Positions 3,633-61,576 of a stretch of 64,000 nucleotides of DNA are shown here, one piece after another; the stretch's first letter is position 1; each line of letters begins with the position of its first letter. The notes beneath the pieces were generated by a model, which was not told the origin of the DNA, searched no databases, and saw only the letters and a program-made list of their open reading frames with translations. This DNA is from Prosthecobacter sp. GTDB taxonomy: Bacteria > Verrucomicrobiota > Verrucomicrobiia > Verrucomicrobiales > Verrucomicrobiaceae. Made by a program: the position numbers and the translations under genes. The DNA is taken from contig NZ_JAXMIH010000006.1 in the NCBI RefSeq assembly GCF_034366625.1, positions 558,001 through 622,000 on the forward strand. Direction: 5' to 3'.

Positions 3633-3679
3633 TCCCGCCGCGCCGCGAAGCGCAACCCACGCGTGCGCGGGACATGCCG

Positions 3680-6891: not shown

Positions 6892-6937
6892 TTGGGGCGA
6901 AGGGTTACGAGTGCTTGCCTCGTTTGCTTTCTCCCTC

Positions 6938-7729
6938 ATGAAGTGCCTCGCTTTTTTTCTTCTCGCCGCCATGTCCGCCCACGCCGTCGAAATCATCGCG
7001 CATCGCGGTTTTTCCGCGCGTGCGCCGGAAAACACGCTCGCGGCGTTTGAACTCGGCTGGAAGCATCAGACCGATGCCTGTGAGCTGGATGTGTATCTTA
7101 CCGCCGATGGCAAGACCGCCGTCATTCATGACAAAGACACGAAACGCACCGCCGGTGTGACGCTGGATGTGGCGAAGTCGAAGCAGGCAGACCTGACTGC
7201 GCTCGGTGCTGGCTCGTGGAAAGGCAAAGAGTGGGCGAATGAGAAAATTCCGACGCTGGAGCAAGCGCTGGCGACTTTGCCGAAGGGCAAGCAGCGCTTC
7301 TTCATCGAGGTCAAATGCGGCGCGGAAATCGTGCCGGAGCTGAAGCGCATCCTGGAGCCGATGAAGGATCGTGCGGATCAACTTGCGATCATCGCGTTCA
7401 AGCGCGACGCGGCGGCGGAATCGAAGAAGGTGCTGCCGTGGATCAAGGTTTACCGCCTCGCTTCCGGCAAAACGAAGGACAAGAAACCCACGGACCTGAA
7501 ACAGCTCATCGCTGACACCACGGCGGACAAACTCGATGGCCTCGACCTCGGTGTGGCTGATTTTCCTTGGGATGAGACGATGGTGAAGCAGATCCGCGAC
7601 GCGGGCTTCGGCCTCTACGTCTGGACGGTCAACAAACCGGCCGATGTGCAGCGTTTTGCGAAGCTCGGCGTCGATGGCATCACCACGGATGATCCAGTCA
7701 TGGTGCGAGAGGTTTTGGCAAAGCCTTGA
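6938..7729 (+). CDS. Secreted glycerophosphodiester phosphodiesterase
   Basis: 263-aa enzyme of the GDPD family (TIM barrel), releasing an alcohol and glycerol-3-phosphate from deacylated phospholipids. The start at 6938 gives a typical signal peptide (CLAFFLLAAMSAHA) immediately before the catalytic HRG; the longer ORF from 6815 would bury it. Catalytic and metal residues visible are His22-Arg23, Glu49 and Asp51 in CELDVYL, His64 in VIHDKD, and the FIEVK strand. The C-terminal YVWTVNKPADVQRF and GVDGITTDDP motifs complete the barrel. Its length is normal for the UgpQ-type branch. It is divergent from the lipoprotein phosphodiesterase, and both point to phosphate or glycerol recovery in the periplasm. 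Confidence 0.95.
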   Translation: MKCLAFFLLAAMSAHAVEIIAHRGFSARAPENTLAAFELGWKHQTDACELDVYLTADGKTAVIHDKDTKRTAGVTLDVAKSKQADLTALGAGSWKGKEWANEKIPTLEQALATLPKGKQRFFIEVKCGAEIVPELKRILEPMKDRADQLAIIAFKRDAAAESKKVLPWIKVYRLASGKTKDKKPTDLKQLIADTTADKLDGLDLGVADFPWDETMVKQIRDAGFGLYVWTVNKPADVQRFAKLGVDGITTDDPVMVREVLAKP

Positions 7730-18748: not shown

Positions 18749-21700
18749 TCAACGACGACGACGTCGGCGCAGCATCAGGCCGACCAGGCCGAACATCAAC
18801 AGCAGCAGGCGGCTGGGTTCGGGAACCACGACGATGATGCCGTAGCGACCGAATGCTGAGGTGTCCCATGCCAGGCCTCCAAAGCCAGTGATGTCGGGCA
18901 GGTCGAGATCGCCAGCCGTCGGACTGGCGCCACCAATGAACCCGCTGGTGTAGGCGAAAGTCATGTCCGATGCCTGCGTCCAGTCGATCAGGTTGAAGAC
19001 TTGGCCATAAGTGACCGAGGTCAGGCCTGCATCCAAGATGCGGATAGAACCATCACCATACGCGGCAGAAGCCCGGGCACCGACGGACAGGTTCGAGGTG
19101 GTGGCACCTGTGAGCTTGAGCTGGTCATGATTGGTGGAAGTGGTCGGAGCCACGTTCCAGGTGGCCAAGGCTTCAAGGCCATCAGCACCATTGGCTGAAT
19201 CGTTATCCGCAGCGCTGTTGAACAGGAGCAAGGCGCTGGCATAAGTGCCGCCTTTGTACTCATACTGTCCGTTCGAGAACGTGATCAGGGACGCGTTGGT
19301 CGGGTTGGCAACACCGAGCTGGATCTGCGAGCCGTCGGCCACGGTCAGCGCCGTCGTGCTGTCCGCCGTGAGCGTCAGTGTGCCGTTGGCGGCGCCCAAG
19401 CTGCCGCCTACCGCGAGGATGCCCACGCTGGTCGGCGTCGGATTAGTGCCGCTGCCAACGGTGACTGTGCCGCCGATGGTGCCGTCTCCAGAAAGGATTG
19501 CGGCATTGATGAGCGTGCCACCGGTTTCACCGACCGTGACCGCGCCGGTGCTGAGGCTGCCTGAGACGTGGAGCTGGCCGTCATTGACCGTGGTGGTGCC
19601 GGTGTAAACGTTGGCACCGCTGAGCACCCATACTCCCGAGCCAGACTTGGCGACGGATGTCAGGCCGGCACCGGCATTAGCCAGGGGGGTGGCAAATGTG
19701 TTCTCATCGGTGTTGGTGCCGCTCAAAGCAAGCGTGCGGGCGGTTGCGGCAGTCGGTTGCGTTGGAGAAGTCGTGCTGGTGAACACCATCGGACTACCGG
19801 ATGCGCCGGAAGCATCCAAGCCTCCACCGCTTGTGCCAAGTGTGAACTGACGGTCCGTGGTGCCGGTGGTCGCGCCAGTGCCGATGTAGCCGAGGGTACC
19901 GCCGTTGAGCACGAGATTGGCCGGGGCGGCGGCGGAGTTGCCAATGCTGCTGACGTTGCCGCCCGCGTCAAGCTTGGTGGCTTGGAGAGTGCCGGCGTTG
20001 ATGGTGGTGGTACCGGAGTAGGTGTTGGCGGTGTTACTGAAGGCCATGGTGCCTGTGCCTGCCTTGATCACATTGTCCGTGGCACCAGTGCCATTGGAGA
20101 TGACCGCGGTGACATTCAGCTCGGCGGAGCCGGCGGCGACACTGCTGCTGTCAGCAACAGTGAAGGTGCGAGTGGCAGCGCCAGGCAGGCCAGCACCCAC
20201 TGCGGTGCCACCGAAGGAGACATTGCCGGAGAGCGTTGAGGCCAGCGGGTTGCCTGCGGCATCGTAGGCCACGTTGCCAAGCAGGTTCAGTGTGCCGGCT
20301 CCAGTCGATACATTACTGGTGCTGGTGGTCGTGCCACCGGTGCCGCCGAAGGTGAGGGAGGCGATGCTGTTGTTGAATCCTGCAAGGTTGAGCAGGGCGG
20401 TTTCCCCAGCAGTGGTGGAATTCACCGTGACAGCAGTGGTGGCAGGCAGCGTGTTGTTGGCTGCCGAAGTGATGGTGCCGCGGTTGATGGTGGTGGAGCC
20501 GCTGTAGCTGTTCGGGCCACCAAGCGTAAGGGTGCCGGTGCCCTGCTTCACGACATTGAGCGTGGAACCGACGTTGTTGGTGATCGAGCCGCCAAATGCC
20601 GTGCTGGTGGCGTCACCGATGAGCAGGGTGGTGGTGCCGGTCGTCGCCGAGGTGGTAAGGAGACCGCCCGTGGTGCTTGAGTCACCCGTCAGGGAAGCAA
20701 TAGAGATGATGGCACCGCCGCCGTTGATGTCGAGTGTGCCGCCGCTGAGCACAGACACTGCGGAGGTGACCGGGATGGCGCCGAAGGTGCCATACTTCAG
20801 CAGACCACCGCTGACGATGGTCGGGCCGGTGTAGGTGTTGAAGCTGTTGGCAGGGGCAGCACCGCTGAAGGTGAGGTTCTGCAACGAAGCAAGCGTCGAG
20901 GTGGTGGCGAGGCTGAGGGTCACATCGCCGGTGCCGGTGTTGATGGCGGTAATGGTGGTGCCCGCAGCGATGCCGGAACCAGTCACCGTCGAGCCAATCA
21001 CCAGTGTCGCGGCAGGCCCAACGCCCACGTTGATGTTCGTGCCAGCCGCAGGAACCGTGGCGGCGAGGCTGACCGCATTGCCGAAGGCAAAGGTGCCGGC
21101 ATTGGTAGTGGCAATGGCGGGCTGAGAGAGAGTCACCACTGCGCCGGCGACGCTTGCAACCGTGGTGCCCGGTGCGATGCCAGTGCCGTGAACGGTCTGG
21201 CCGACGACGATACCTGCCGCAGCCGACGCGCTAAGGGTCAGCGCCGTGGTGTTGATCACCGTGGCGTTGGTAGCCGCACCTGTGGCACTCAGCGCACCTG
21301 GGGTCTGCGGGGTGAGGGTCAAGGTGCCGTTGCCGGTCTTGGTGAAGCCAGTGCCATTGCTAATGATGCCGTTGATGGCGGCGGTGGCCTGCGGATTGCT
21401 CACGTTGATGGAGCGTGCGCCGCCACCGAGATCGAGGGTGCCGTTGAGGGTCAGGTTGGAACCCGTGCCGCTGCTGTTGCCGTTGATGGTGAAGTCACCG
21501 TTGGCGATGACGTTGTTGGCGATGGTGCGGGCGGTGCCGTCGGCCAGGATGGTGGTGTTATTGGCAAGCGTCAGAGTGCCGGTGCCGAGAGGGCCTGCTG
21601 TCACTTGCAGCCCGACCGTGGTTGGCGTGCTGGCAGCACCGATGATGAGCGAGCCGACATCCACATTGACGCCACCATTGAAGCTGCTGGTCGTGCTGGT

Positions 21701-24700
21701 GAGTGCGAGGGAACCGTTGCCTGCCTTGGTGATGCCGGCGAGCGCTGTCGTGCCCATCACATTCTGGATGGGTCCGGTGATGGCGAGGCTGACTGGCGAC
21801 GCGCCTGAAGTGGTGACCGTTCGACTGGTGCCGTTGAGTTCGACAGTCGAGGCGATGGTCGGCGTCGAGGCGTAGTTGTCGTTGGTGGCGGTGATGGGCG
21901 TCACTGAAGTGAACACCAGGGTGCCCCCGGTCACCGTCGGAGTCGCGGTGCCGCCGTTGTTGTTGAAGGTGACGCTGTTGAGGGTGTTGGCACCCACGAG
22001 GGTCAGAACGCTGCCGCCATTGAGGATAACGCTGCTGGTCGAGGCGATGGAGCCGTTGTTGGAGATCTGGGTGGCGTTGGCGTTGTTCAGGATCAGGTTG
22101 CCCTGGACCTGGATGCCACCCAACTGAGCTGCCGCGTTGCCGATCTGGAGGAGTCCCTGGTTGACCACCGTGTCACCCGTATAGGTATTGGAGAAGTATG
22201 GCAGCGGGGCGGAGAAGGTGATCGGATTGCCAGCAAGAGTGCCCGTTGCATTGGCCGAGAGGACAAAGGTGGTTCCGTTGGTGATGCTGGCAATGGTGGC
22301 ACCGTTGGGGATATTGGTTCCAAACACAGCCATTCCCACGGCCAGTCCTGCGGTGCTACCAGCGCTAACGTTGGCCGAGGCATTGGTGGTGGTGAAGTTC
22401 GAGGTGGTCGAGGCAAGGAAGTTCGCGATTGGCGCACCGAAGATCAGGTTGTTGGAGGCGTGGGTGGCAGTTGCATTCACCGCTGCGCCCGTGGTGGCGT
22501 TGATCAGCGTGATGGTCGTGCCGCTCACGGTGCCGATCACGGTGTTCTGCGGGATACCGACGCCCTGGACATACATACCCACCGAGAGACCTGCAGCCTG
22601 TGCGGCACTCGCCATCGTGATGGACGCACTGGCGCTGGTCGTTGCGCCAACGGCCGTGCGACCGATGGCATTGGACAGGCCGTAGTAGGCGTTGGCCGTT
22701 CCCGTGGCGGAAGCGGCGGCGGAGAGAGTGATGGTGGTGCCATCAACGATGCTGGCGACCGTGGTGCCGAGCGGAATGCCCGGCCCTTGCACGGGCTGAC
22801 CAACAAACATGCCGAGGCTGCTGAGCACCCGCGCTGTGCTGCTGCTGGCAGTAGTGGCGGTCGGTGTGGAACGTTCCGCAGGGGCAGCGAAGTTAGCCGT
22901 CGTGGGTGTGCCGCTGGTGAGGGCGTTGGCTGAGAGAGTGGCCAAACCAGTGCTCTGATCGTAAGCGGTGATGTAGGTGTTGGCTGGCAGAGTGCCAGTG
23001 CCGCCAGTGACCGTCACGATCTGACCGACATTCAGGCCCAAGGTATTGGCTGCCACTGAGAAGGTATTCACGCCAGAGGTCAAGGTTGGAGCGGCTGCGG
23101 TTTGAGCGGCGACCGGGGCGAAGAGCAGGGTGGCAGCACCATTGCCGGTGGCGTTGGCGGAGAGAGTGACCGTGGTGCCAGAGATGCTGAGAACGGTGGT
23201 GCTCGCGGCGAGCGTTCCGGTGGAACCCACGGCGGTGGTGACGACCTGGCCGGGATAGACCACGGTTCCGACTGGGACGGTCACGGTGTTAGCACCGCTA
23301 GCCAGGGTCTGGTTCACCAGCACCTGCGAGGTGGGCGCGGTGAAGGAAGCGTCGGCATTGGTGCCGGTACCGGTGCCGACGTTCTGATTGATGGTGTATT
23401 GCGTCCCGCTGTTGACGGCGGTAACAATCGAGCCGGCGGGGATGCCCATGATGGCAGGTGATCCCATGCCGACCACCACACCGGCGACACCGCTCGCACC
23501 CGTGCTCAGCGCACCAGCGGTGTCGATCGTCGGAGAGGCCGAGGTGGTGGTATTTAGTTCAAGCCGTGGTTCAACACGGAGAGCCACCGTTGCACCACCC
23601 GACTTCACGAAATTGACCGCACCACCGCCGTTGTTTTCGAGCCGGGAGAGGAACTGGGTGGTGCCGTTGTTGGCGAACACATAAAGTGAGGAGTTGGCCG
23701 TCGTGCCCGCCGTGAAGCGTCCATTCATGAAGTTCACCGCCTGCCCGTTGTTGTTGGTGAGAAGGCCGCCAGTGCCGATGCTGATCAACTGATCCATGGA
23801 GCGCATGACGAGTCCAGCGGCGGCGGTTGCACCCGTGTTGCTGTACCTCAGCGAATTCACCGTGCGGCTGGTGATATCCGAGCGGGACGCGCCGTCATTG
23901 ATGTTATCCGTCGCGGTGCCGTTGCTCAGGTTGTTCGCATAGGCTCCGAAAGGTGTGGCACCGTTGGCACTGAAACCGATGAAGCCGACACCGAAGGCAC
24001 CGGTGACGGGATCGACGGTGGAGCGATAGCCGGCGAAGTCCGCGCCGTTGACCACGGCCCAACCGCCGATGAGGTTGTTGGTAAGTGTCGGAGCGGCGGC
24101 GATGACGATCTGCGGGTTGGCTCCCTGATTGAGGGTGGCAACGTTGGCCGCATTGACAACCCCAGCGACGGGGCCGCCGAGGTTGCCGCCACCGCTGGTG
24201 AAGTTGATGGTCGCTTTGGTGTCGCCGCGGGAGAGGCTGGGGATGGTCAGCACAGAGCTTGATCCGGTCGGCGACCCGCTGGCGAAGATGGTGTTGTTGA
24301 TCACGTTGGCACCGCCGTTGATGGTGACCGCGCCGAGGGTCTGGGTGTCGGCGATATCCGCCGCGAGGAAGGAGAGCGTGCCGCCGGTCATGTTGATGGC
24401 ATTGGTGCCGATGCGGGCGGTGGCACCGAGCACGGCGAGGCCAGAGTTGTCGAGCGTCAACGACCCGAAGGACATGTTGATCGTCCCGGTGGCGGCGATG
24501 GTGCCGTTGTCGCGGAGAGTCACCGCGCTGCGGAGTGTCAGTGTGCCGGTGCCGAGGTTGTTGGCGCTCAGGAGCGTCCAGGCACCAGCGCCCTGCTTGT
24601 CGAGGTTGATGTTGCCACCGGTAATCGCGCCAGCGAAGGTGGCGGCGGCATTCGGGACGGTGATGAGGGTGGCGGTGGTGCCGCTGAGGTTCTGGATGGT

Positions 24701-27700
24701 GCCGGCGCTGTTGGCGTAGACGTTCAAGCTGCCCTGGGTGATCTGGCGAACGGCCTGGCTGTTGCCATTGAGGTCGAAGAAGCCGCTGTTGACGAAAAGG
24801 TCGGCGACGGTCGGGACTGTGGCCGTCGGGATGACAAGGAGCGCATTCGGGCCGACTCCGGTGCCGAGCGCAAGGGTGCCATTGTTGACGATGGTGGCAC
24901 CGGTGTTGAAGCTCTTCTTGGTAATGGTGGCCGTGCCTTCGTCAGACTTCACGATGCCGCCGGAGCCGAGGATGGTGCTGCCGACGCTAAGGGTGGTGGC
25001 CGCGCCGAGCACATGGAGATGCACCGGGTTGGCAACACCGCTGATGGTGCCGCCGGAGAAGCCGCTGTTGCCAGCGTTGGCGACGATGCCGCCGCTGGTG
25101 ATGGTCAGGGTGTTGAGCGCGCCATTGTAGCCGAAGAACTGGCCGTTCGGGCTGCTGGTGGCGGTCAAATTGCCGCCGCCGAAGTAACCGATGCCGCCGC
25201 CGCTTTCGAGCGTGAGGCTCTGGATGGTCGAAGCGTTCTGGATGCTCGTGCTGCCTGTGGCCTTGGCATTCACGGTCGTGGGCACGATGTAATTGAAACG
25301 GTTCAGGCCCGCTGTCACGGCCACGGAGGCGTGGACAAAGGTCACCGTATCCGTGCCGATGGCAGTGATCGTGGCTCCGGCAGGAATGACGTTAACCGCA
25401 GCGCTGAGGGTCTGCCCCACGACCAAGCCCGAGGTCGAAGCACCTGGGAACCAGATGGAGGCGGTGGTGGTGGTGCCAGCGAAGGTGGTGCCGCGATAGA
25501 GCGCTCCAAGTCCTTCACCCGTCGGCAGGATTTGGTATTCTGCCGAGGTGAGAAGGCGGTAGCCGTTGGCATCGTGAGTCACGAAAGCGCCCACAGTGTC
25601 ACTGATGTCGATACCGATGATGTCAGGACGGATGCCGTTGGTCTTGGAACCTCCAACCGCCGGGTTGGTGCCGACCAGAGTCGGTGTGGTGGCAATAACG
25701 TTCACGCGATTGGCTCCGGCAGCACCGCCTCCAAGAGTGCCGGTGGCTCCGGCGTTCAGGATGAGCGAACCCTGATTGGTGGCGCTCTGGGCAGTCATGG
25801 TGCCGAGGCTGATGCGGGTCTGGAAGCTGGCGTTCTGGGTAAGGTTCCACTGGCTCTGGCCGGCGACGTTGGTGACAGTGTTGAGGGTCTCAACCACTGC
25901 GCCGGCAGTGCTGCCTTGGTAGTTGAGCACACCACCGCGGTTGTTGAGGACGCGGTCCGCGCTGCCTGACTGGATGGACTGCGCCCCGCCCAGGCGGTTG
26001 CTGATGGCATCCGTGGCGCTGTTGAGGGTGAGCACACCGCCTTCACCGAGGTTGGTGGTGACAAAGCCGAGCTTGCCGGTGGCCTGGTCGAGCACGACGG
26101 CGTCACCGAGGATGGTCAGGGTGCCAAGGAGGTTGCCTGAGCTGTCGCCCGTGAGCGTCCAGTCACCGGAGCCGATCTTGGTCACATTCAGCAGGCCGGA
26201 GGTGTAATCGCTCAGGAAGGTGCCCGCAAAGGTGCCACTGCTGCTGTTTCCAGTCACCAAGGTGCCAGCGGTGCTGACGTTGAAGTTTTTGATGAACGTG
26301 CCCGCCACACCACTGATGGTGCCGACAGCGATGTTCGTGTTGCCGCGCATGTCGAGGATGGTGCCAGCGTTGGCGAGGCTCACCGTCGTGTTCGCGTAGT
26401 TGGAGGCGGCAGTGTTGGTGTTCGGACCGAGCACGAGCGCACCGTTGTTCACGTTCAGCGTGAGTGTCTGGTTGCTGTAGCCGCCCAGTTGGAGCACACC
26501 CGCGCCTTCCTTGTTGATGGTGCCGCCTGCCGTGATGTTGGAGTTGAGCGCGAGGCCGATCTGCTTGTTGGACTGGCCGGCGGTGCCGCTGACCGCTGTC
26601 AAGCCGCCCATCACGTCCGCCACGGTGATGGTGGCGGCGCCGGGCAGGCTGAGCCTGCCGCTGACAGTCGGGATGACACGCACATCATCAAGGCTGGTCG
26701 CGTTGATGGTGTCAGCGGTATCGGTGAGCGTCAGGGTGCCTGAACCGGTCAGCATATGGGCGCTGCCGGTGATGCCGCCCTGGGAGTTGAACACCACTTT
26801 CGAGACGGTTTCATTGAAGCCGTTCAGATCCCACAGCGCACCACCGCGCACCGTGACCGTCGCCGTATCCGCGATCTGCTGGCTGAAGAGGCTGCGGGTG
26901 GTGGAACTGGCCACGACACCGGTGTCCCCACCGCTGTTGGTGCTGCCGGTCATGATCAGGTTGCCGGTGATGGCATTGCCGGAGCCGGTCTGGTTGTTCA
27001 GATTGAGGATGACGCCGTTCGCGTAAGCCGTGCCAGTGTAGGTGTTGGCATTGGTCAGGGTGATTTCGGGAGCGTTCCCCGTCTGGCTCAGACCCGTCAT
27101 CACCAAGTCAAACGTGCCCGTGCTGTTCGCACCGATGTCCGAATGCACGGTCAGGGTGTTGTCACCGACATGCAGGAACAGTTCAGGACCAGTGGTGGTC
27201 AGACGGCCACGGACCGTGGCGGAGCCAATGGTGCGGGCGTTGTTGTCCACGCCGGCAAGGATACCGCCGGACGTGACCGTGAGGGTGTCGGTGCCTGCCG
27301 CGAACACCAGGGTGGAGACCGCGCCGTTCATCGTCACCGAGTTAACAGTCTGACCTCCACCGGTCACCGTCTGCGTGCCGTTGAAGCGCAAGTTGCTCGC
27401 GGCAGTGGAGGTCGCGAAAGTGATGTTCTGCTCCACGAGGTTCATCTGGCGGATGCCCACCACCGGATCGTAAACGGCGAACTCCGCATTGTTGGTGGCC
27501 GTCGTCCCGTCCGCAGTGACCACCGTGGCCCAGCCGCCGACCATGCCATTGGTGTTGGTGGTGAGTCCGGCTGCGGTCGCAGTAAAGAACGGATTCGCCC
27601 CCACGATGCCCGCTCCCGCCGTGAAGGTGAGGGTGGAGCCAGTGGCACGGCTGAAGGTGCCGCCAAGATTGAGCGTGGCCTGGCCGAGACCGGCACCGCC

Positions 27701-30700
27701 GACGTTGGCGCGGAGCACGGAGTTGCCTCCCACCAAGGAAAGGTTGCCGAGGGTAACGGTTCCGACTGTGTTGCTGCGGCTGATGTATTCAAAGGCACCA
27801 CCATCAAGCTGGATGGCCACCGTGCTGGCGATACGGTTACTCATGCCCTGGATGCCGGAATCATCCCAGCGCAGGAGGGAGTTGCGGATGCTGATGGTGT
27901 CGCCAGCGCCCATGCCGGAGAGGCGGCCCTGGTCCACGAGAGCGGTGATGCTGCCCTGAAGGGTGAGATTGCCGGTGAACTGGTTGTTGTCACGCATCGT
28001 GAACTGTGTGCCGCCCGTCTTGACGAAATTCAGGTCGCCATTGATCTGGCCGGTCCAGTCACGAGCCGTGTTGACGTTGGTGATGAAGGTGGCGTTGGAA
28101 CCAGAGTTTTGGATGATGCCGCCGCTGCCCACGGTGCCGTTACGACTGAGCAGGTCGCCGAACACCTGGGAATTGCCATTCAGTTCAAGCACGCCGCCAG
28201 CGGTGATGACGAGAGCGTCGTTGTTGGCGGTGGTGGTGGTGGCATTGGCCAGCGGGGCGGTGGCAAAGCGGTAGAGGAGCGGATTGGTGTCCGGGGCGGC
28301 GGTGGCGATCTCCACGGTGCCCAGGTTGATCTGGGTCAGACCGGTGTAGTTGTTGCCCGTGGTGGAATTGAGCAACAGCTTGCCGTTGCCGGTCTTGGTG
28401 AGACCACCCGTGGTGGGAGCCACACGACCACCGAGTGCCACATCCAAGGTGAGGACAGTGCCGCTTCCGTAAGTGTGGAAGTTCCAGTTGGTGCCCACCG
28501 CAGTCGTAGTCAGCGTACCCGCGCCCGTGATGGAACTGCTGGTCTTGGCCAACACACCGCCGCTCTCAATCTGAAGGTTGCGGTTGGTGTTGACGGTGAA
28601 CGGACCGGCGTTCTCGAACGTGAGCGAGTTGATGCTGTTTGAGGTGATGCCCGTGGCGGCGGCACCGGAGTTCAAGGCTCCAGTAAGACGGATGTTGTCG
28701 TCCGCGCCAAAGGCGGTCGCCATTTCAGTGCTTGGGTTCAATGGACGCAGACCATTTGTAGTGTCATAGGTAAGGAACTGCGTCGTGGCCGTCGTTCCGT
28801 CGCTAGTCGCTGACGTGTCGCCGATGGCCCATGGGTAGATGCGCATTTCAATGCCGCTAGTGTCCGTCTGTCCGACAATGCCGACAAAGTTGGTCGGCGC
28901 AGTGGTGGTCGCCAGAATGATGTTTGTGTTCGTCGCCCCGACGCCCTGTCCGAGCGCATCACCACGAACGAAGGCGGTGGCGTTGTTCGCGCGGGAGAAG
29001 GTGCCGGTGCCGGTGGTGGTGATACGGAGGTTGGCACCGTTGTTGTCCAACGTGATGAGGTTATGGGCCAGGTTGATGGCAATCTGCAGGTCAGTGCCCG
29101 ACGTCTCATTCACCGCCGTGCTGCCGTGGCCCAGCAACTCCAGATGGCCGCCGTTCAAGGTGACGGGCCGGGTGCCGAGACGCACGCTGCTGGCTGCCCC
29201 CGAGATGTTGTCCAGCGTCAGGCGTGTGTTTGGCACGATGCCGGTGTAGGTGCCGTTGTTCAGCGTGATCGTGCCGGCATTGCCGAGTGTGCCGGCACCG
29301 CTGGCGACAATCGCGCCGAGGTTGATGGTGGTGGCGCTGTAGGTGTTGGCCGCCGTGAGGGTGAGGACGTTGTTGCCGACCTTGGTGAGGGTGAACGCGC
29401 CGCTGACGGCACCACCGAGGGTGATGTCACCCGCCGTGGCCACGCCCGAGGTGGCGTTCACGCGGTTGGAACCGATACTGGTGGCCGCACTCATCGCCAC
29501 CGTGCCGGACCAAGTGGCCGCCGTGTTGGAGGAGTTGATCAAAGCACCGAGGGAACTGACCGTGCCGACGCCGGAGACCGTGCCGGAGCCGCCGTAGCCC
29601 GCACCCGCGATGGTCAGCCCCTCGCCGGTGATGGTCAGGCCGTTTAGATCAAGCACTGCGCCGCTGACGATGGTCGCGCCGAAGGTGCCCAAGGCATTGA
29701 CGTGACCAAGCTGCAAGGTGCCGAGGTTGACGGTGGTGGTGCCCACGTAGGTGTTGTCGCCGCTGAGAAGGAGGGTGTTGTTGCCCGTTTTGGTAAAACC
29801 TGCGGTGCCTGATACGATGCCGCTCAAGGTCATGTTGCCCCGGCCACCGATGGAGGAGTTGCTACCCATGGTGATGTTGCCGCTGAGGGTCGCGGCGGTG
29901 GCGCTGCTGTTCCAGATGGCACCCTTGAAGTTGCCCGCCAAGGCCGCCGTGCCCGTGCCGTTGATGGTCAGCGCATTGCTGATGCTGAAGCCGTTGATGT
30001 CCAACATGCCGTTGGTCGCACCCACGAGGTTGGTGATGGCCCCCGAAGCGGTGGCGCTTTGCGAGATGGTGATCTGCGTCGCGCTGTCCACGCTGACGAT
30101 GTAGGCACCCGCCGGGATGCCCGTGCCGGTCACGGCCATGCCCTGCTGCATGGAGGCCGTGGAAGAGATGCCCGTGATGACAGCGGAGCCGGAGGTGGTC
30201 GTGGCGGCGGCCTGGGCTGCCAGCGTCGTTCCCGAAACGGTCACCACTCCCGAAGGTAGCGCACCCACATGATTCAGCATCACCGTGCCGTCCTGGATGG
30301 CGAGGTCGCCGGTGAAGGTGCCCGCCGTAGCGTTGTCGGCTCCGAGCATGAGGGTGCCCTGGCCGGTCTTGATGAGCGCCCCGCTAGTGCCGGTGCCCGT
30401 GACGAGCCCGGTGCCGCTCTGGGTGATGGGGCCAATGAGATTGAGCGTCCCCGCAGCGGCCGTGGTGCCGATGTTGGTGGTGGCCAGGATCACGCCAGTG
30501 CCGATGGAGGTCTCGCCACCCACGCCGAAGAAGCCGGTGCCGAAGCTGCCGGTGGCACCGTTGGTGACGTTGAGGATGGAGCTGTTGCCCAGCACCATCG
30601 CGAAGTTGCCTGCGCCCTGGGTGCCAGAAGTGTCGATCCTGTTCGCAACCTGAGGATCCACCACCACGCCGAACTGCGTGCCGAAGGTGTCAATGGTGGC

Positions 30701-33700
30701 GCTGCCGCTGGGCAGGTAGTAGGCGGTGTTGATGATGGCCGCGCCGTTGTAGCCGTTCGCCGACGTCGGAGCCGCCGTGGTGTAGTTCAGGTTGGAGGCG
30801 GCGATGGACTGGTAGGCACCGCCCGTGTCCGCGCCCGAATAGAGCAGGCGGAAGCCGCCGCCACCGCTACCGTTGGTCGGCTTGTAAACAATGGAGTGGA
30901 AGCCTGCCGTCAACGTCGTGGTGATGGCGGCGGAGTCCGTGAACGCGTGACCGAAGGCATCGCTGGCGATGGCCACACCGTCAATGTAGAGCGTCATGCC
31001 GTCATCCGTGCCGGAGCGGAAGGTGTAATCACCCGCATTGGTGATGTTGATGAAGCCGGAGAATGCCGCCGCTCCGTTGGCGAATGTTGCTGCCGTGGCC
31101 GAAGGGCGGTTCGCAAAGGAACCATCGGCAAGCTGGCTCACCACGAAGTTGGAGGCCGAGAAGCCGATTCCAGCCACCTGGCTGCTGACAGCGGCGGTGG
31201 GCGCGCTGGCCAAGGATGCGAAGGCTCCATTCAGGCCGCCGCTGCTGTAGCCGAAGCTGGTCATGTTCGCGCCGCTGAGCACGGCGCTGTTGATCTGGAG
31301 CGGGTAGGCCCCACTGAGGGTGATGGGGGCACCGCTGTTGAGCGTGGTGGTGGTACCGATCTGGATCTGGTCGGTGAAGAGCAGGGTGCCCTGACCGACG
31401 TTGATGGGCTTGTCGCCAGTGTAACCGAAGATGATGACTGTGGTGCCTGCCGCCGGGTTGATCATCGGAATCGAGCCGCCAAAGATGTCACCGCTCACAT
31501 TCACGAGGCGCAGTTGATAACCGTTGGCGCTGGAGACGTTGAGGATCTGGCCGCCGTCGAGTGTGATGTCGTTGAGCACAATGGTGTTGCCCGTGTTGGC
31601 CCCGTTGTTGCCGATGTGCAGATTCGCGGTCGTGAGCGATCCGCCCACCACGACGTTGTTCGCGTAGGTGATGAGACCGTTGCTGGCTGTGCCGTTGTTG
31701 GTGAGCGCAAGCACGCCGCCGTCGCCGATGGTGGCGTTGGTTCCGGCGAAGACCGGCGCGGTGTTGCTGTCGTTGAGGCCGGCCAGTGCCAGCGTGCCGG
31801 CGTTGACGGTGACGCCACCACCGAAAGTGTTGTTGTTGCCGAGAATGAGGGTGCCCAGACCTTCCTTGGAGATGCCGAAGGTGCTTGCACCGTCATCGAG
31901 CAGCATGTTGAGCGTCAGCACCGCCTGCGGAGCCTCCACGGTCACCGTGGTATTGCCGAGCAACGTGGTCGTCGTGTTGTTGCCGTGCAGAGCAAGACTG
32001 TTGAGGCCCTTGTAGGTGAGCTGCGTCCCGGCGAGGGTCACGGCATTGCTCAAGGTGAACGCACCTGCGGAGGTGAGGTAGGTCCCAGCCGCACCGATGG
32101 TCAATGCCCCCGTGCCGACGGGGCCGCTGGCAAAGACACTGACCACGCCGGTGATGCCGTCGCGGGTGGTGACGTTCGTGCTCGCACCGACGGCGAGGCC
32201 GCCCGCCTGCACATCCACTCCGCCACCGAAGAGGCTCGCGCCGGAGAGCTGGAGCAGGCCGTTGCCGGACTTGATGACGCCGGTGGTGGCGAGGTTCGTG
32301 GTGCTGCTGATCGGGGCGCTGATGAGCAGCGTCGGGGTGACATTCGCGACCGTGGTGTTGCCGTTGATGGTCACGGGATTGACGGTGAACGTGCGGGTGG
32401 CCCCGTTGAGATCCAAGGCGATGCCGCCGGTGCCTGCGCCAGAGATGGTGGAAACGGTTCCCGTGTTGCTGGAACTGGCCGTGATGTCGCCGTTCAGCTT
32501 CAGGATGCCGACACCCGTGATGACCGCCGGGGGGTTGGCCACAGTGCCGCCGCCATTATTGTCAAAAATCAGGCCGGCGAGTGTCTGGTTCTGGCCGTTC
32601 AGGTTCAAGGTGGCGAAGTTGCCGCGGATCACCGGAGTGATGTCGAAGTCAATCTGGTTCGCCTGGAGCAGACGGACAGTGCCACCGTTGATGATGAGGG
32701 AGTCAGCCAGCGTGGCCGCTTCAGGAATCGCAGAGAAGCCAAGCGTTCCGTTCGCACCGGTCACGTTCAGGTCGAGGAAGCCGTTGTTGGCACCGTTCGT
32801 GGTGTTGACGACCGTGCCGCCGGAGTAGGTGTTCCCGCCGTTCGTGATCTGGAGCGCACCGGTGTTGTAGCCAGTGAAGGTCAGGCGCACGAGTTCCGTG
32901 CTGTTGTCCACCACGCGGGCGTTGAGCACAACCGGGTTGGCAGTCGCCGCCGTCACCACGAAGTTGAGGTCCACAAGGGCCGAATCCACGGCACCACCGG
33001 CGGTCAGACGACCGTTGTCCACCACCGCACCAATGTTGGAATTGAAGTTGGCAGTCTTGATGATGATGCCTGCGGTGAGGTTCATCACATCGGTCACGGT
33101 GTTCGAGCCGTTTCCGAAGGTGATGGTCTGGGTCGCACCCGGATTGAGGTTGAGGGCGTTGATGTTCAGTCCGCCAGTCGGCAGAGTGATTGCTGCGGTG
33201 GCCACCTTGTAGTTTCCGGTCGCATTGCTGGCCGTGGGAAGCACGGTGCCGTCGTAGCCCTGGTAACCGGCGCTGCCGAGCGGCGCGAGTCCACCGGCCG
33301 CGTTTCCCGCCGTCGGCTCCACATAGCTCACGAGTTCCCCGCCACCGGAGTTGATCCACGGGATGATGCCGTTAATCAGGAGGCTGCTGCCGTTCGCGAC
33401 CACGATGCGAGTGTTGCTGCCCATCTGGCCCGCCGGGGTGTTGAGCAGCAGCATTGAACCGTCCAGGTGGGTCATGTTCCCCAACTCCATGACGGTGGAA
33501 CGAACCGTGCCCGCCCCAAGCCCCACCTGGAGGTTGCCACCGCCTTGGGCGATGGTGATGTCGCCGAAGGTTTCCGTGGTGTTCGTCAGGTCGCGGCCCG
33601 TGAGGATCAGGGCGCCAAAGCCGCGCAGCGCGATGGTTGCAGCATCATTGACGCGATTCGTGTGAGTCGTGGTTCCGTTGTCGTTGAGGGTGAGCGTGGC

Positions 33701-36700
33701 ACCGCTGATGTTGATGCTGGTGGTGCCAGAGAGACGGGCTTCGTCAATCAGGGTCAACGTGCCGCCGGTGAGGAGCGTGGCGCCGGTGTAGGTGTTGTCG
33801 CTGTAGAAGGTGGCGCTGTTGGCAGCCGCCTTGTTGAAGTAGAGCCCCGCGCCCTGGATGCTGCCGCCCCAGGCGGCCGTGCTGCCGGAGTTGTTCGATG
33901 AGACAAGCGTGCCCGTGCCCGTGATGATGCCGCCGGAGCCGGCGAAGGCGAAGCGGTTCGGCGAGCTGATTTCACCGACCATCTGGGCGTTGGCGCCGAG
34001 GTTCAGCGTGCCAGCGGGGCCGACCGCGAGGTTCTGGCCAGCCGTGCCGCCCTGCGCGCCCTGCCAGAGGGTGTTCGTGCCACCCGCGAGTGTCACAGAG
34101 CCATCGAGGACGGAGAAGAAGTTGTTGCCGGCGTTGAAGTATTGCTTGGTGTTGAACGTGAGGCTGCCGCCGAGGCTCTTGGTGACGTCCTGGGTGTTGA
34201 AGAACGCGGCGTTCACAGCGAGCGTGGCTCCCGTATCCACCGAGATCGCACCCGCGACGCTGGTGAAAACGATGGCTGCGGCGCTGGCTGCGGCGGGCTG
34301 CGGGGCCGTGCCGAAGAAGATGGCCGGTGCGGAGTCGGTGGCCACGAGCGAGGCACTGCCGATGGTCTGGCCCGTGCCGGTGGCGAGGATCATGCCGGTG
34401 TTGATGGCAAGCTGGGTGCCGCCGGAGGTGGCGAAGGTCACGTCCGTGTTGTTGCCTTCGATCCTGAGGGCGTTGGTCGTGCGCAGGTTCAGGCCAGGGT
34501 TGCTCAGCGCCACGGTGTCGCCGGTGATGTTGAGGACATTGCGGCCACCGGTCACGGTGGCTGCGTCCTGGGCATTCATGCCGAACGCGGTGCCACCATT
34601 CACATTGGTGAACCCCAAGTCGGTGCCAGTGCCGGTGCCATCAATGGCGGTGTAAGTCGAGTAGGCCCTGAGGTTTCCGGCAGCCCCCGCTCCAGTGTAG
34701 GTGGCGAAGTTGGTGCCTGCGGCGTCCTTTACGATGGTGCGCAGGATGATGCCATCGCCCGCAACCGTATTGGCATTGACGGGGCTGGTGCTGACAAACG
34801 TGGCAGGCATCGTCGCCACCACCGGCGTGGTGGTGAAGATGACGCGATTGGTCGTGGCGTTGAAGGTCTGGGCACTCTCAAAGAGCAGGTGACCGCCCGT
34901 GCTGGGCACGGCGAGCGAGGCAAAGGTCAGCGTGGCATTGGATCCGCCAGCGTTGGTCAGGGTCAGCTTGTTGCCACCCGGGCCGGCGGTGAGGGCACCG
35001 AAGGTCTCAGCGGAAACCGCGCCGCCGTTGGCGGTGTAGGCGAAGTTGCCGGCGTTGAGGGTCAGGGTGCGCGCGGTGCCGCCGATGCGGGTGAGCGGGC
35101 CACCGGTGGTGTCGTCAATGTTCAGCAAGCCGTTGTTCTGCACGATGATGTTGCCCGTGGCCCCGGTGAGCTGGCCTGCGCCGCTGATGTTGAACGTGCC
35201 TTGGGAGACTGTCCAACTGTTGGTGGTGTTGGCGGTGCCGGTAAGATTCAGGGTGCCCGTGCCGAACTTCGTATTCGCAGACTGGTTGGAATTGTGACCG
35301 GCAAGATTGATGATGCCCGAGCCCACGGCGATGAATTGCGGACTATTGGCTAGGGTATTGAAGGAGCTAGAACCAATGTTCAGCGTAGCTCCGCTGGCCG
35401 CACCATAGAGTTGAGTGGATGCACCCGAGTTCGTGAGGGCCCCGTTCACGGTGTTGTTGCCGCTAGCGGAGAAAATGCCTCCGGTGCCATTGATGCCGTT
35501 CAGGGAGTTTCCGGCTACAGTCTGCTGAATGGCGTTCGTCAGGGTAATACCACCCGTCAGCCAAAGTGCGGCACCACCAGCTCCACCGGGAGCCACGATG
35601 ATCTGACCGCTGCCGAGGGCGTCGGCATTGTCAATCTGGACGACACCGCCGAGGATGCGGGTGATGCCCGAGCGACCGCTGTTGTTGGCCGTGATGACCA
35701 GGGTGCCCAGGTCATTCTTCGCCAGTTCATTGCCCGCCGCGCTGAAGGTGAAGGCGGTGTCGAGGGTGGCGGTGGTGCCTGCCGACACATCAATGCCCAC
35801 GGCAGCAGCGTTGAGCATGATGGTGCGGCCCGTGAGCGTGTAGGCTGTGCCGCCATCGAAGCGCAGGCCATTGGTGGTGGAGTTCTGGCTGAGACGGATG
35901 ACGTTGGACGTGTCGCCAAAGGCCCCGTTGCTCGTGCCGGAGAGGATGCCCGCCGTCACGTCGATGATGGCGCTGGTGCCGCCGAAAGTGTTGGTGGCAT
36001 TGCTCAATTTCAAGGTGCCGTTGCCGGTCTTGGTAAGGACCACATTCGAAGCACCGGTGGCTCCGCCGGTGATCTGCCCGCTCAGCTCCATGCTGTCCAC
36101 CACGTTGGAGTTCTTCGCACCCCCAGCGACGTTGAAAGTTGGGCCTGCACCCGTGAGGGTTGAAAGGGCCACGGCATCCGACACCACGAGTCCATAGCCG
36201 TTGTTGGCCGTCAGCAGGATGCCGTTGGCGACCGAGGAGAAGCTGGTCGGGGTGATGATCTTGTTGACCGCCTGGTTGAAGAGCACGGTCTGGCCGGAGC
36301 GGCCGATGGTCAGGTTCGGCGGGGAGGCGGACATGGTGATGGCACCAAGGTTGATGGCCTCGTTCTGCACATCGCCATCGCCGTCGTGCATGATGCTGAG
36401 GGTGCCGCCGTCGTTCATCGTCACCGGCAGGGTGCCGGTCGCGCCGGTGAGATTGATGACGAGGTTGCCGAGGCCGGTCTTGGTCACGCTGGTGATGGAG
36501 CCGATGTTGGTGATCGCCCCTTGGAGCGCGGCAGTGACGAAGGGATTGTCCACGTTGATCGTCAGCGCACCGTTGGGCGTGGTGATGGGGCCGTTCAGCG
36601 TGATGATGCGGGTGGTGCCCGTGGTGGTGTTGCGGAAGGTGGGGTCGCCCTGGAAGACCACGTCGTTCACGATGGTCCGGGCGGCGTCGTTGGTCAGGAG

Positions 36701-39700
36701 GGCATTGCCCGCAGCGAGGGTCAGGGTGCCCGTGCCAACGGGGCCATTCAAGAAGGCGGTGGCGTTAGCACCAAGACCAGCGGCAACACGCGTGGTGATG
36801 TTCGTATCCGCCGCCAATAGAATGCCGCCCGCTGTGCCTGTGGTGGTCACGCCACCCGTGAAGGTGTTCGCCCCGCCGAACTGAAGGACGCCATTGCCGC
36901 TCTTGGTGATGGTGGCGGTGCCGGTGATGACGGAGGCGATGGCGAGGGTGGGCTGGTTGATCGTGTAAACCTGGGATCCGATCTGGATGGGGGCCACGCT
37001 GATGGTCTTGGTGCCGGAGCCGAGCGCCAGGGTGCCGCCGGTGATGGTGGCAGTGGTGGCGGCGTTGCTGCTGGTCGCGGTGATGGGGCTGCTGCTGGAC
37101 AGGGTAAAGGTGCCGCCGGTGCCGATGGTGACCGTGGGCGCGGCTTCACCACCGTTGTTGTTGAGAGTGATGCTGTTGAGGGTCTGATTCACCGATGCCG
37201 AACCCGTGAGCGCGGCACGCCCGTTCAAGGTCAGATCCGTCGTGGCTCCGATGGCGTTGCTGACGGTCAGGTTCGCTGTCGTCCCGGTTCCCGTGACGCC
37301 GCCGTTGATGGTGAATCCGCCCAGCGCGGGAACGACGACATCCCCGGGCGTGGTGGGGCTGATGTTCAACGTGCCGCGGTTGAGCACCGTGCCGCCGGTG
37401 AAGGTGTTGGCGGCGGTGAGGGTGAGGGCGCCGACACCATCCTTGACGAGGCGGACGGCATTGCCAAAGCCGTTGTTGGCGATGACGGAGTTGATGGTGA
37501 TGGTGCTCTGGGCGTTGTAGGTGATGAGTTCGCGGGTGCCGCTGGTTTCCGTGCCGCCGGCGGTGAGCACGCCGCGCAGAGCGGTGGTGCCGAGGGCGGT
37601 GGTGGTGTTGTTGTCACTGCGCAGCAGGCCGCCGAGTTCGAGGTTCAGGATGTCATTGGCCTCGGCAAAGGAGATGTCATTGGTGAAAGCACCGGCGATG
37701 CGCAGCATGGCAGTGGTGGTGGTGTCCGCAGTGCTGTTCGCCAAGCCGAGCATGCTGTTCGTGACGGCGGTGGCGGGAATCTGGGTGATGAGGCCGGTGC
37801 CGAAGCCCGCGTCATACCCCGTGTAACCACCCTGGCCGACGATGCCGATGCCGTTGCCCGCGTTGTAGGCGGCGTAGTCGGTGCTGTTGGCAATGGCCCA
37901 GGCGCCGAGCGCACCACCGAGCACGGTGGTGAGCGGAGTGGTGAAGACGATGCGGGCGTTGTTGCCCTGCTGGCCAAGGTTGGTGCCGGTGAAGTTGAGG
38001 GTGCTGTTGCTGGTCCGGGTCAGGCTGGCGAAGGTGAGGTCCACGGTGGTAAATGTCCCAGCTGAAGCAGTGGCCGTGACTGTATTTGCCCCTTGGGCAA
38101 TGGTCAGTGCACCGAGAGTCTCAGCAGCCGTTGAACTCACACGGCTGGTGTAAATGATCGAACCGCCGCGCAGGGTGATGGGGGCGGTGTCGCCGATGCG
38201 GTTGTTGTTCTGCGTCTGAAGACTGGTGTTGTTGCTCAGGGTCAGCGTGGCATAGTTGATGTCGATGCTGGAAGTGTTGAGGATCGTGGCGTCGTTTTCC
38301 AAGGTGGTCGTGCCGCCAAGCAGCATCGTGGCTCCGGTGTACGGGTTCGCCGACTCCAAGGCAACCGTGCTGCCGCCGATGCGGCCATAGTTCACACTGT
38401 TGGTGATCTGCCCCGCGAAGGTGCCGCCGCCGTTGGTTACCAGGGTGGCGGTGCCGGTGCTGGTGGTGACCGTGCCGGCGGTGTTAGGGAGTACGCCTCC
38501 CAAAAGACTGCCCACATACTGCGTGTTGCCATTGAGGTCGAGAGTGGCGCCCACGTCCACGCTGAGTGCTCCCACGGTACCCGCACCCGCCGCAAAGAGG
38601 GTGTTCAGCCCCCCGTTGAGTTGCAACGTGCCGCCGGAGACGTTCGTGGTGGTGTTGTGGAAGGTCTGGGTGTTCAGATCCATCTGGCCGGCCCCTGTCT
38701 TGTGGATGGTGTTTGTGAAAGAGGCGTTCACATCCAGCGTGGTGCCGGAGTCCACCTGGATGAAGCCCTGGGCAGACTGCACGATCTGGGCGGCGGTGAG
38801 AGTGTTGTTGCCCCCGGTGTTGAGGATGTTCGAGGAAGTCAGCGTGAGCGTCCGGCCCGCCGTGCCCACAGTGAGGCCAGTGCCGTTGATCTTGACGGCG
38901 TTGAGGGTGCGGCTGGCGAGGAGCGCGGCGTTGGCGGTGACATTCAGCGTATCGGTCGCCAGTGCGGTGTTGAGGTTGTTCGAGACGTTGTAGCCAGTGA
39001 AGGCCTGGAGGCCATTGGCGTTGGCCGAAACGCCGTCATGGTTGTAGCTCACGAAGTCCCCGGCAATCATCACACGGGGCACGATGCCACTGGTGGCAGG
39101 GACGATCCCGAGACCGGTGGACGTGGTGAAGAAAATCTTGTTGCTGCCGCCCAGGCTGGTGACTCCCGAGACATCCAACTGCGCGGAACTGCCGGTGAAG
39201 GTGACACCCGAGAAAGTAAGGCTGTTGCTGCCCACGCCAGTCATGTTGATGCTGCTGGCTCCCGTAACGGTGAGCGCACCCGCAGCCTCCGTGGTGGTGT
39301 TGCCGATGAAGTCCAGCACGCCGCCAGACATGGCGATCGCACCCGTGTTGGAAAGGCGATTGTCGTTGTTTGTAACGCTGTTGTCGAGCCGCAGGGTGCC
39401 CTCCGCGTTGATGGCGACAGTGCCTGCCGTCCAAACCCCATTCGCTCCGCCCAAGACGAGGGTGCCCCGGTTGGCAGTGAGCGCACCGGTGGCGGTGTTG
39501 GCCCCGGTCGAGGTGAAGGTGCCGGTGCCAGAGTAAGCGAGGCCGTTGGCCCCCGTGCCTGCGGCGTAGATGCCGTTGAGCGTGGTGTTGCCAGTGCCGA
39601 ACACGGTCAGTGTGGAGGCGGCGGTGTTCGAGATGTTGCCAGTGATGGTGAGCGAGCCGCCGGAAATGTTGTTGATCAATGAGCGGCTAGCCGCCAGTGA

Positions 39701-42700
39701 GAGCGATGTGGCGGCGGTCAACTCGATGCTGTTCGTCCCGCTGAAGGTGGCCGGATCACCGCCGAGGGTGATCGGCGTGTTGATCGCGCTCGTGCCCGTG
39801 AGGGCGATGCCGCCCTGAACCGCACCACCATTGAACGCGAATGATGATGTCGTGCCAAGCGGCGACACGCCTGCAGTCTTGTTCAGGATCAACGTGCCCT
39901 GGCTCAGGGTTGTGACTCCCGTGTAGGTATTGGCCGCGCCACTCATGGTGAAGGAGGCATCATTGGCGATGGCGATGTTCCAGGCGATCTTGCCGCCCGC
40001 CGCCGCGTTTTCGGTGATTGCGCCATTCCAGAGTGTAGAGCCGTAGCCGCGGATCTCGAAGCTCTGGGTCGCGCCGGTGGTGGCGGCTTCAAGGTTGATG
40101 AAATTGCCGTTGATGGTGAGCAGCGCCCCACCTTCCAAGTTGTTGCTGATTCTTGTCGTGTTGTTGCCAGCAGCCTTGGTCACATTGTTGTTGATGGTGA
40201 TCGCATTCTGACCGGCGATGACTGATGTGGCGTTGTTGCCCACCGTGACTGGCGTGCTGGTGGTCAGCGCGCCACCATAGGCAAAGATGGCACCGTTGCT
40301 GATGGTGATGTTGGCAGCAGTGCCAATGCCGTTCGAGGTAAGACCGAGAAGGCCGCCCGCAGCAGTGATGGCACCGGTGAACGTATTGGTCGCAGTAGGA
40401 TTGAGCACCCATACACCACCCTCCGATTTTGTGACGGCAAGAAGGCTGGTGCCATTGTTCGCCAGCACCGAGGTGATCATGTTGTTGTCCGCGTTCGAGC
40501 CACGCAGGTCCAGAGTCATCGTGAAGGCACCCGTGTTGCTGTTGGTCACAGTGCTGAGCACGAGGGCACCGCTGCCAGAGCTGTCGAGGCGATGGGTGCG
40601 GGAGGCGGTCAGAGCGGTGCTGAAGACCAATGGACGGCTGGCTGTTTCCCCCGCACCGACGTAAACCAAGCCGTCCAAGGTGGCATTGGAGTTATAGACC
40701 ATAGAGCCGCCGCTGGCACCGAGGGAGCTGGAGGTGGTGCCGGAAGCATTGCCGAAGGAACTGACGATGAGGGTGCCGCCCGTCAGGATGGTGTTGGCAA
40801 CATAAGTGTTGGCATTGCCGAGAATCAAAGGGCTGCCACCGTTCTTGGTCAGTGTGCCGCCCGCCCCACCACTGATGACACCGGACAGGATGCCCGTGGT
40901 GACAGCGGCACCGGTGTTGCCGTTGTTGTTTACCGTCACGGTGCGGGCCGCAGTGCCGAGGTTGATGTCGTTCGTGATTTCCGTCTCACCCAGCGCGGTG
41001 GAGGAGCCCAGAACAAGGGAGCTTGGATTGAAGGTGGCACCGCCCCAAGTGATGGCACCGCCGCCGAGCGTGACCACGAGGCGGTCCGAGGTGGAGGCGG
41101 CAAAGCCGGAGGCACCGCCGGTTAGCTGCACCTGATTGGTTCCCGCCGTGCTGCCCAGGGCGCGGCTGAAGGTGCCGGAGGTTTCCAGAACGCCGCCATT
41201 GATGGTCAAGAGACTGTTGGAGGAAAGACCCGTGCCGTCCATCGCACGGAGGGCACCGCCGGAAATCGTCGTCGTGCCCGAGTAGGTGTTAGCGGAGGAA
41301 GGATTGAGAATCCAGAGGCCGGCGTCCGCCTTGGTCAGGGCAGTGGCCGAGGAGTCGATGGTGTTGTTGGTGATCTGCGGGGTGAAGACGTTGTCACCGA
41401 TGGATGTGCCGCCGAGGGTCAGCGTTTTGGCACCGCCAGTGAGGAATTCGAGCGCGCCTGTGTTGCTGAAAATAAGACTGGCGTGGTTGGCACCCGTGCC
41501 CGCCGCGCCCGTTTCATTGCCATAAGTGCCGCTGGATTGGATGACAGCGTTGCCGGCGAACGAGAAGAGACGATCTGTGCTGGTGGACGGCGTTTGCGTA
41601 GTTTGGTAGATGCCGGCACCCGAGGTGTTGGCACCGGTGTAGAGCAGGGTGCCTCCACCGAAGATGAGGTTGGCAGCCGAATTACTCGAAGCGCCGAGAC
41701 CACTGCTGAGAGAACCATTGGCAATGGACGTGATGGCGAGAGTGCCTGCGTTGATGGTGGTCACACCTGTGTAGGTCTTCGCCCCGACGATGGCCTGGGT
41801 GCCGGTGCCGTTCTTGGTGACGTTCAAGAGGCCCGTGCCATCCTGAAGCGCACCGCTAAAGGTGGCGCTGGAGGTCGTGGTGCCAAGCAGTCCGATGTTC
41901 AAGGTCGCCTGGGTGGCGCTGCCGTTGCCGCTGTTGGTCACCATGCCCGATCCCGAGAGGCTGCCGATTGTGGTCACCGGATAGGTGGTGCCACCCGTAT
42001 AAAGCGCAGCAGATGCGCCGGCGGCGTTGATGTCGAGAATGCCTCCCTGCCGGATGGTGGTGATGTTACCCACGGTCGAGATGGTCCCGAGGCGCGCGGC
42101 GGAGCCAGACAACTGAATCGCACCCTGGTTGATGGTGGTGTTGCCGGTGTAAGCATTGCCGCCGAAGAGAATCAAGGTTCCGTTGCCGGCTTTCGTCAGA
42201 GATCCCGCGCCACTGCTGATAACGGTATTGGAGGCACCGGAACCAATCGACAACGCATTGCCCGTTGTCAGAGCCGCACCTTGTACGGGTGCCACTACAG
42301 GCGAGGTGCCGTTGGTGGTGACCACCAGTTCCTGAGCCGTGGTACCCAACTGGAAGGCACCTGTGATGGAGGCGGTGCCTGCGGAGTTATCAAACAACAA
42401 ACCGCCGGGGTTGGTGGTGATGGGGAGCGCCGCGCCAAGGGTGAGGGCGGCACCGCCGGTCAGTTTAAGGGAATTCACCGCACCGCCAGTGCTGTTGGCG
42501 GCCCCGCCGATAACGTAATTGACCGTGGAGGTGGGCGCGAGCGCACCGCTCCAGGCAGTTGCACCGGTGTATTGCGCGGCGTTGTTACCGCTCAGGGTGA
42601 CAAAATCCAAGCCGTTGAAGGTGGCATAGCCTGGAAGAACGCTGTTCGTAAGGGTGGGCGCGGTGGTGAAGCCAATCGTGCCAATGTCGGGCTGGAGATC

Positions 42701-59628: not shown

Positions 59629-59969
59629 AACAGTCATGGGTTGGGTGCAAAAAAAACGCTTTCGACGCAACCGCAGTTCCGCGAAGGCCCTCTTCAAACT
59701 AAGTTTGAATTTACAGTATGAAGGTTCTGAGTGACCACGAACAAGCAAAAAAGTTCATTCTTTTGCCAGCCAGCCCGCCATTGATTTTGAGTTCTAAAGC
59801 TGGCCGTTTTAATACGGGCAAATGACCGAGACTAAGACTGAGAAATCAGCTTATTGATGCCCTTTGAGCATGCTGATCAAGTCTTTCCACCGGAGATCTC
59901 GATCATCAGTGACAGGCATGCTGGATTCCGTCGCAAGACACTTCTTCACATCGCGTTTCAGGTGCCGTC
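59629..59969. other. 341-bp divergent intergenic region (giant gene 2 / sulfatase)
   Basis: Holds the leader of giant gene 2 and the upstream region of the plus-strand sulfatase. The conserved element is at 59749-59795. Between it and the giant start, CTTCAAACTAAGTTTGA (59692-59708) matches CCTCAAATAAAGTTTTT in the leader of giant gene 1 at a comparable place. No gene is supported here. Confidence 0.6.
59749..59795 (-). promoter_or_regulatory. Conserved two-block upstream element of giant gene 2
   Basis: Blocks AAAAGTTCATTCTTTT (59749-59764) and TTGATTTTGAGTTCT (59781-59795) match those before giant gene 1 exactly in sequence. They lie 121-167 bases before the chosen start, compared with 116-163 in the paralogue. 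The intervening bases are mostly different. Confidence 0.65.
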
Positions 59970-61487: not shown

Positions 61488-61508
61488 GGTGCTGCGCCGT
61501 CAAGCAGG

Positions 61509-61576
61509 TCAAGGAATGGTCAATCATCGTTGAGATGTTTCAGTGTCACCTTCTTGACCCCTTGACCACTCCTTGA
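61509..61576. repeat. Imperfect inverted repeat between the sulfatase genes
   Basis: TCAAGGAATGGTCA at 61509-61522 is inverted at 61563-61576 as TGACCACTCCTTGA, with one mismatch and about 40 bases between. Extra GGTCAA/TTGACC copies lie beside both arms. No T-run follows, so a regulator site is at least as likely as a terminator. Confidence 0.5.

Follow-up and report, generated by a model that had tools for sequence, protein, structure and literature searches.

Small barrels inserted into larger beta structures are known from phages. A single six-stranded barrel set in a beta-helix is described for phage tailspikes; in LKA1 gp49 and KP34gp57 (PDB 8bke) it occurs as one copy per chain, and its charged residues complete a catalytic groove. 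The I-domain of the phage P22 coat protein is another near system. A further one is the decoration protein of the Arthrobacter phage Bridgette (PDB 8eci, chain 1), a 126-residue capsid protein, described as a dimer located around the penton (PMC13033339). Here we describe a bacterial counterpart in a 64,000-nucleotide stretch of Prosthecobacter sp. (contig NZ_JAXMIH010000006.1, positions 558,001 to 622,000; hereafter the window), where a giant gene carries six tandem modules, M1 to M6, between the two halves of one PATR unit. The scaffold of the host protein consists of PATR, the autotransporter-associated beta strand repeat (PF12951, TIGR02601), from which the modules differ.

Compared with the Bridgette capsid protein, these modules stand in tandem within a bacterial PATR unit. 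Compared with the tailspike barrels, they occur in an estimated one to eight copies and lack a conserved charged residue (42 aligned modules); any likeness to the tailspikes lies in the fold (Z 7.5 of the module model to 4ru4). Six strands are predicted and empty sites show the insertion into PATR, but a joint model of modules and solenoid was poor. No name for the module was found in Pfam, in NCBIfam or in the one literature library searched, where no paper contained the GIPAGT string and none combined two or more of the terms PATR, autotransporter repeat and PEP-CTERM. Thus, as far as these searches can tell, what is new here is a sequence family with no Pfam or NCBIfam model, its tandem arrays, their location in a giant bacterial solenoid, and a series from none to an estimated eight copies at one joint. 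We consider it likely that the six copies represent a loop-insertion domain related in sequence to a phage decoration protein, a predicted six-stranded barrel that is repeated in tandem within one PATR unit and probably forms a side arm on an otherwise continuous beta-solenoid shaft.

The array and its empty sites

The six modules span 22196-23548 and comprise 70-79 residues each, the boundaries being our own choice. They were scored with a profile of 336 of the 348 module rows, all from other proteins, the 12 rows of the window being left out. All six (11.3-61.0 bits) exceeded the highest score, 8.8 bits, obtained when the same 460 residues were shuffled 500 times, although this test is not wholly independent, because the 336 rows were recruited by iteration starting from the six. 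A set of 200 control segments was dropped, as it includes a module near residue 5090 (49.4 bits). The tandem array of six copies proposed in the earlier note is therefore present. In the case of its core motif around GIPxGT, the description fits M4, M5 and M6 and partly M1, but not M2 and M3, in which the GIP letters are gone and which were found by the profile.

Forty-two well-scoring, non-redundant modules were aligned (41 from 60 listed), so the conservation seen applies to typical modules. Positions G28, G33 and T49 are invariant, and the most conserved positions hold Gly, Thr, Leu, Ile and Ser only, none of them charged. Charged residues amount to 1.8% in the modules vs 7.2% in the rest; the overall composition is Thr/Ala/Gly-rich beta, resembling the shaft.

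The placement within a single PATR unit can be followed by comparing homologous loci. Both flanks of the focal unit were present in 17 of the 29 loci examined. Two of these are module-free, and their PATR halves adjoin (gap -1 with flank E-values of 3e-6 and 3e-31; gap 1 with 8e-7 and 9e-27). In the filled loci the gaps measure 270, 270, 276, 345, 385, 447-458 and 587 residues, corresponding to an estimated 4, 4, 4, 5, 5, 6 and 8 copies, with nine loci, including that of the window, in the 447-458 class. Apart from zero, these copy numbers were estimated from gap length, because profile hits fragment or drop under threshold: two of the nine six-type loci gave five hits, as did the 270-276 gaps (with some of the hits partial), and there were four in the 385 gap and nine in the 587 gap. 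The other 12 loci lack the left flank and none was counted as empty; in six of them a module or a pair of modules lies further upstream, G001C76 carries two next to the second half, and the remaining five have none. A ten-sequence alignment showed that the five-module form lacks M3.

Similar differences were detected at two other places in the same protein (sites A and C, Table 1). For site A, 32 loci yielded 29 rows (L224, L270 and L275 had no usable flank pair) and, after removal of five duplicates, 24 distinct places: 12 without a module, three with one, seven with two, one with three, and one with a module-sized insert missed by the profile. The empty loci look like ordinary PATR units, e.g. 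KNGSGTWVLSGANTYTGTTTVAGGTLKL. At site C, eight of 15 loci carry an insert of 72-80 residues, detected as a module in six, vs a loop of 22-41 residues in the other seven. As the loci at all three sites were picked because they had matched in preceding searches, these shares are not frequencies. The argument requires only that the flanks are homologous, whether the loci are orthologs or older paralogous copies. Altogether, judged from sequence, whole modules differ in number between homologous loops, and the PATR halves on either side can still be aligned. As relatives have between zero and an estimated eight copies at this position, the domain is a plug-in part, in agreement with the earlier proposals that the modules are duplicable and lie between the halves of one PATR unit.

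Regarding the age of the array, the modules of the window were compared one by one with those of four distant homologs, cut at alignment columns. The positional counterpart was the best match in 19 of 24 cases; the five misses involved M6 (three), M1 (one) and M3 (one). The array thus probably predates the split of these lineages, rather than stemming from a recent tandem duplication.

A single entry loop had also been suggested. This applies to the focal array, and the PATR hairpin is enriched overall, but most module clusters enter elsewhere by a strict half-motif test. Among 212 clusters, drawn from giants picked for many modules, 13 were flanked by an orphan first PATR half on one side and an orphan second one on the other, compared to 17 of 5,000 random intervals; 13 is too low a count, because even the focal site escapes the strict motifs, and none of the 13 is in the window. 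The enrichment points to the PATR hairpin as a favoured but not the sole entry, and its role as exclusive entry site was rejected. A first splice test, looking for a spanning PATR hit at 12 bits, was uninformative (75 of 212 clusters vs 102 of 424 random intervals), because random intervals gave such hits too, and was replaced by the half-motif and empty-site tests.

Predicted fold and phage relatives

A model of M6 alone (22184-22417) gave a compact six-stranded fold with a predicted local distance difference test score (pLDDT) of 85.9. Its best match was 8eci, and structure comparison indicates that the module model and this type of phage decoration domain share their fold. The predicted form of the module is thus a small beta barrel of six strands, consistent with the discrete domain anticipated before. 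For the shaft, a beta-solenoid is predicted. A joint model of modules and solenoid (611 residues) was poor (pLDDT 60.8, predicted template modelling score 0.32).

In sequence, the module profile matched the 8eci chain with E-values of 7e-6 and 1.4e-5, with a large composition-bias term; a single-segment phmmer search reached only 0.021. Among 26 bacterial modules, one matched the phage cement protein family PF09956 (E 0.022, 15.6 bits, under the cut-off of 24), and 15, 15 and 13 matched PHROGs 10467, 5838 and 6005 at E <= 0.1. DNA encoding GTGIPAGT occurs in at least 120 viral stretches, and the bacterial profile matches 104 of 120 viral open reading frames (ORFs), leaving 16 unmatched; these stretches were selected through the GTGIPAGT motif itself. 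Direct comparison of phage and bacterial profiles gave a probability of 99.5%, based on 18 of the 120 viral stretches and inflated by the motif selection. The phage profile found 172 proteins; among 120 listed, many have about 127-133 residues, near the 126 of the Bridgette protein, and these may be decoration proteins.

Tail and head proteins of phages carry the domain as well. One viral ORF (L142) contains a Pfam collar domain in two stretches (43 bits), the best of which ends at profile position 36 of 57, directly before a module. By eye the collar resumes past the module (FGVGDGSATFNLPDGRG). The protein P0028 seems on inspection to share this layout, its collar match scoring 14.3 (under the cut-off of 24). 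L142 and P0028 both match PHROG tail-fibre families. In another ORF (L092), a minor capsid/cement domain is followed by a module. In sequence, the modules are therefore related to a phage decoration protein of solved structure as well as to domains of phage tail and head proteins, a relation that the earlier note had not proposed. Weighing against this relation, tblastn of M4-M6 on 50,697 phage records returned nothing at E 1e-3. Searches for related loci in viral contigs with two module alignments returned nothing usable.

The module is also used outside PATR proteins, as one protein of 137 residues (P0016) combines a module piece with an Lcl C-terminal domain (PF07603) and another of 697 residues (P0029) consists by eye largely of modules.

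Alternative explanations and possible role

The modules might simply be additional, divergent coils of the solenoid made of PATR-like strands, so that no domain was inserted. Their composition, the solenoid context and a lone PATR match among 26 modules (E 0.36) would fit. However, Pfam gave no family at E <= 1, PATR included, on residues 7191-7856, and the model of a single module is compact and matches 8eci best. Moreover, phage tail and head proteins share the domain, and homologous units free of modules look like ordinary PATR. We therefore regard this explanation as very improbable, and ordinary PATR strands were rejected for lack of a PATR match at a meaningful score; the Pfam check named in the earlier note has thus left its reading standing. 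Even slightly less credible is a role as phage-linked decoy or receptor, in which a surface protein sharing a phage fibre or capsid domain is bound or mimicked by phages. The domain is indeed common to phage proteins and giant proteins, but sharing it requires no such link, none was found or tested for between these phages and hosts, and the phages with matching fold infect unrelated hosts, e.g. Arthrobacter and Synechococcus.

A stronger competitor, possible although we place it below even, is that the modules are passive spacers or bulk filler, i.e. an inert, self-folding barrel with no role in binding, which solenoid loops can tolerate and which builds up through recombination. The scarcity of charges, invariant positions that include no charged binding or catalytic residue, and the variable presence of modules among related genomes are in line with such a filler. 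Against it, the conserved order of the six modules in distant homologs and the near-equal length of the nine six-type loci suggest some constraint. Because this length and order are kept, we rank contact slightly above pure spacing. The low charge and the uncharged conserved positions make an enzyme or a charged binding site unlikely, and an enzymatic role is not expected from the sequence.

Returning to the loop-insertion domain, the array would consist of tandem barrels plugged in without breaking the solenoid repeat, and these barrels may hang off the shaft as a chain of beads. PEP-CTERM signals are thought to act in sorting and surface localisation (PMC4960237), which makes the cell envelope or matrix the likely place of the protein; once exported, it may be retained there by its own PEP-CTERM signal. 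The module faces are probably exposed, nearly charge-free and Thr/Ser-rich, and could make many weak contacts to polysaccharide or neighbouring fibres. Copy number might then tune reach and avidity.

Host gene, further modules and outlook

The 8,906-amino-acid host protein matches PF12951 in 15 and 13 stretches across two parts and also TIGR02601 of NCBIfam, and its N-terminus shows by eye a signal-like stretch. Its PEP-CTERM signal passes with the NCBIfam model, vs 11.1 bits with the Pfam model (under the cut-off of 20.7). Classical (type V) autotransporters are defined by a C-terminal outer-membrane barrel domain; Pfam gave no match to such a barrel at E <= 1, and the protein ends in PEP-CTERM.

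Table 1. Modules, flanking PATR halves and host features in the window
Feature	Position	Strand	Basis or remark
Giant PATR/PEP-CTERM gene, host of the array	18749..45469	-	ORF of 8,906 codons; PF12951 in both halves
PEP-CTERM sorting signal	18755..18826	-	TIGR02595, 23.6 bits vs cut-off 16
First half of interrupted PATR unit, FVKSGGATVALR	23576..23611	-	Translation; homologous halves contiguous in module-free sites
Module M1	23336..23548	-	71 residues; 15.8 bits with profile
Module M2	23102..23332	-	77 residues; diverged, GIP lost; weakest, 11.3 bits
Module M3	22874..23101	-	76 residues; diverged, GIP lost; 20.1 bits; missing in five-module homolog L067
Module M4	22664..22873	-	70 residues; 51.7 bits
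Module M5	22427..22663	-	79 residues; 25.7 bits
Module M6	22196..22426	-	77 residues; 61.0 bits
Second half of interrupted PATR unit, NTYTGDTVVNQGLLQIG	22139..22189	-	Translation; contiguous with first half in module-free sites
Two modules between PATR halves KTGNGTLTL and NTYTGPTIVSGGLLKYG	20825..21262	-	Module iteration and translation
Site C, single module in loop without visible PATR motif	25250..25474	-	Absent from 7 of 15 homologous loci
Single module, outside PATR unit by eye	29990..30202	-	Module iteration, profile search
Site A, two modules in a different PATR unit of the host protein	42995..43453	-	0 to 3 modules in relatives
Single module in neighbouring 4,588-residue giant (45982..59748)	55519..55722	-	PATR matches in that frame

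Iteration from the six modules identified 44 in four giant frames of this genome: 12 in the array protein, one in the neighbouring giant and, in giants encoded on two further contigs, 21 and 10. A whole-genome profile search gave 41 matches at E <= 0.001, confined to the same four PATR frames, while PATR itself matched in at least 10 frames (150 of 204 candidates scored). The neighbouring giant lies upstream of the array gene on the same strand; its signal region is similar and its C-terminus PEP-like. Past it lie two sulfatase genes (59970-63107, plus strand). Elsewhere in the window are a phosphodiesterase/sulfatase-like gene (5527-7035) and, at 1710-4094 on the minus strand, a single protein that combines histidine kinase and F5/8 type C domains.

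In relatives, the module was found in 63 of 68 genomes of the family, with many best matches in frames of more than 10,000 residues, and in at least 30 of 288 genomes sampled across the phylum (at most 21 candidates scored per genome). Protein searches found 19 matches with the 42-row alignment, reaching short proteins only, and 10 with a 721-residue stretch. Ten titled relatives of the array comprise three from Prosthecobacter, six from other Verrucomicrobia and one from Oxalobacteraceae. The last (L216) is 43% identical over query residues 320-611, and its contig is possibly mis-binned from Verrucomicrobia or a case of transfer. A genome of another family in the same class (G168) contains many modules in an open frame of 17,232 residues (contig C2, 8404-50289) and, on another contig, further ones in frames of 3,081 and 2,721 residues. 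One homologous frame (G034:C21:61105-61578) is reported with four in-frame TGA codons.

A broader view, which we hold with middling confidence, is that an unnamed, pluggable barrel family has been traded between the virions of tailed phages and giant surface solenoids. In the Verrucomicrobiaceae it would stand in tandem in fixed hairpins, its copy number acting as an evolving dial for side-arm length. Tandem arrays with natural empty sites marking the joint offer a direct test of how beta-solenoids take up foreign domains and how giant proteins grow. Additionally, a domain of phage fibre, collar and decoration proteins that has no Pfam name in the searches made is now tied to bacterial giant proteins, and curating a model for it would aid the annotation of proteins from phages and bacteria that are now called hypothetical. 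For side arms on solenoid scaffolds, nature offers a guide in this series, which runs from zero up to eight copies by estimate.
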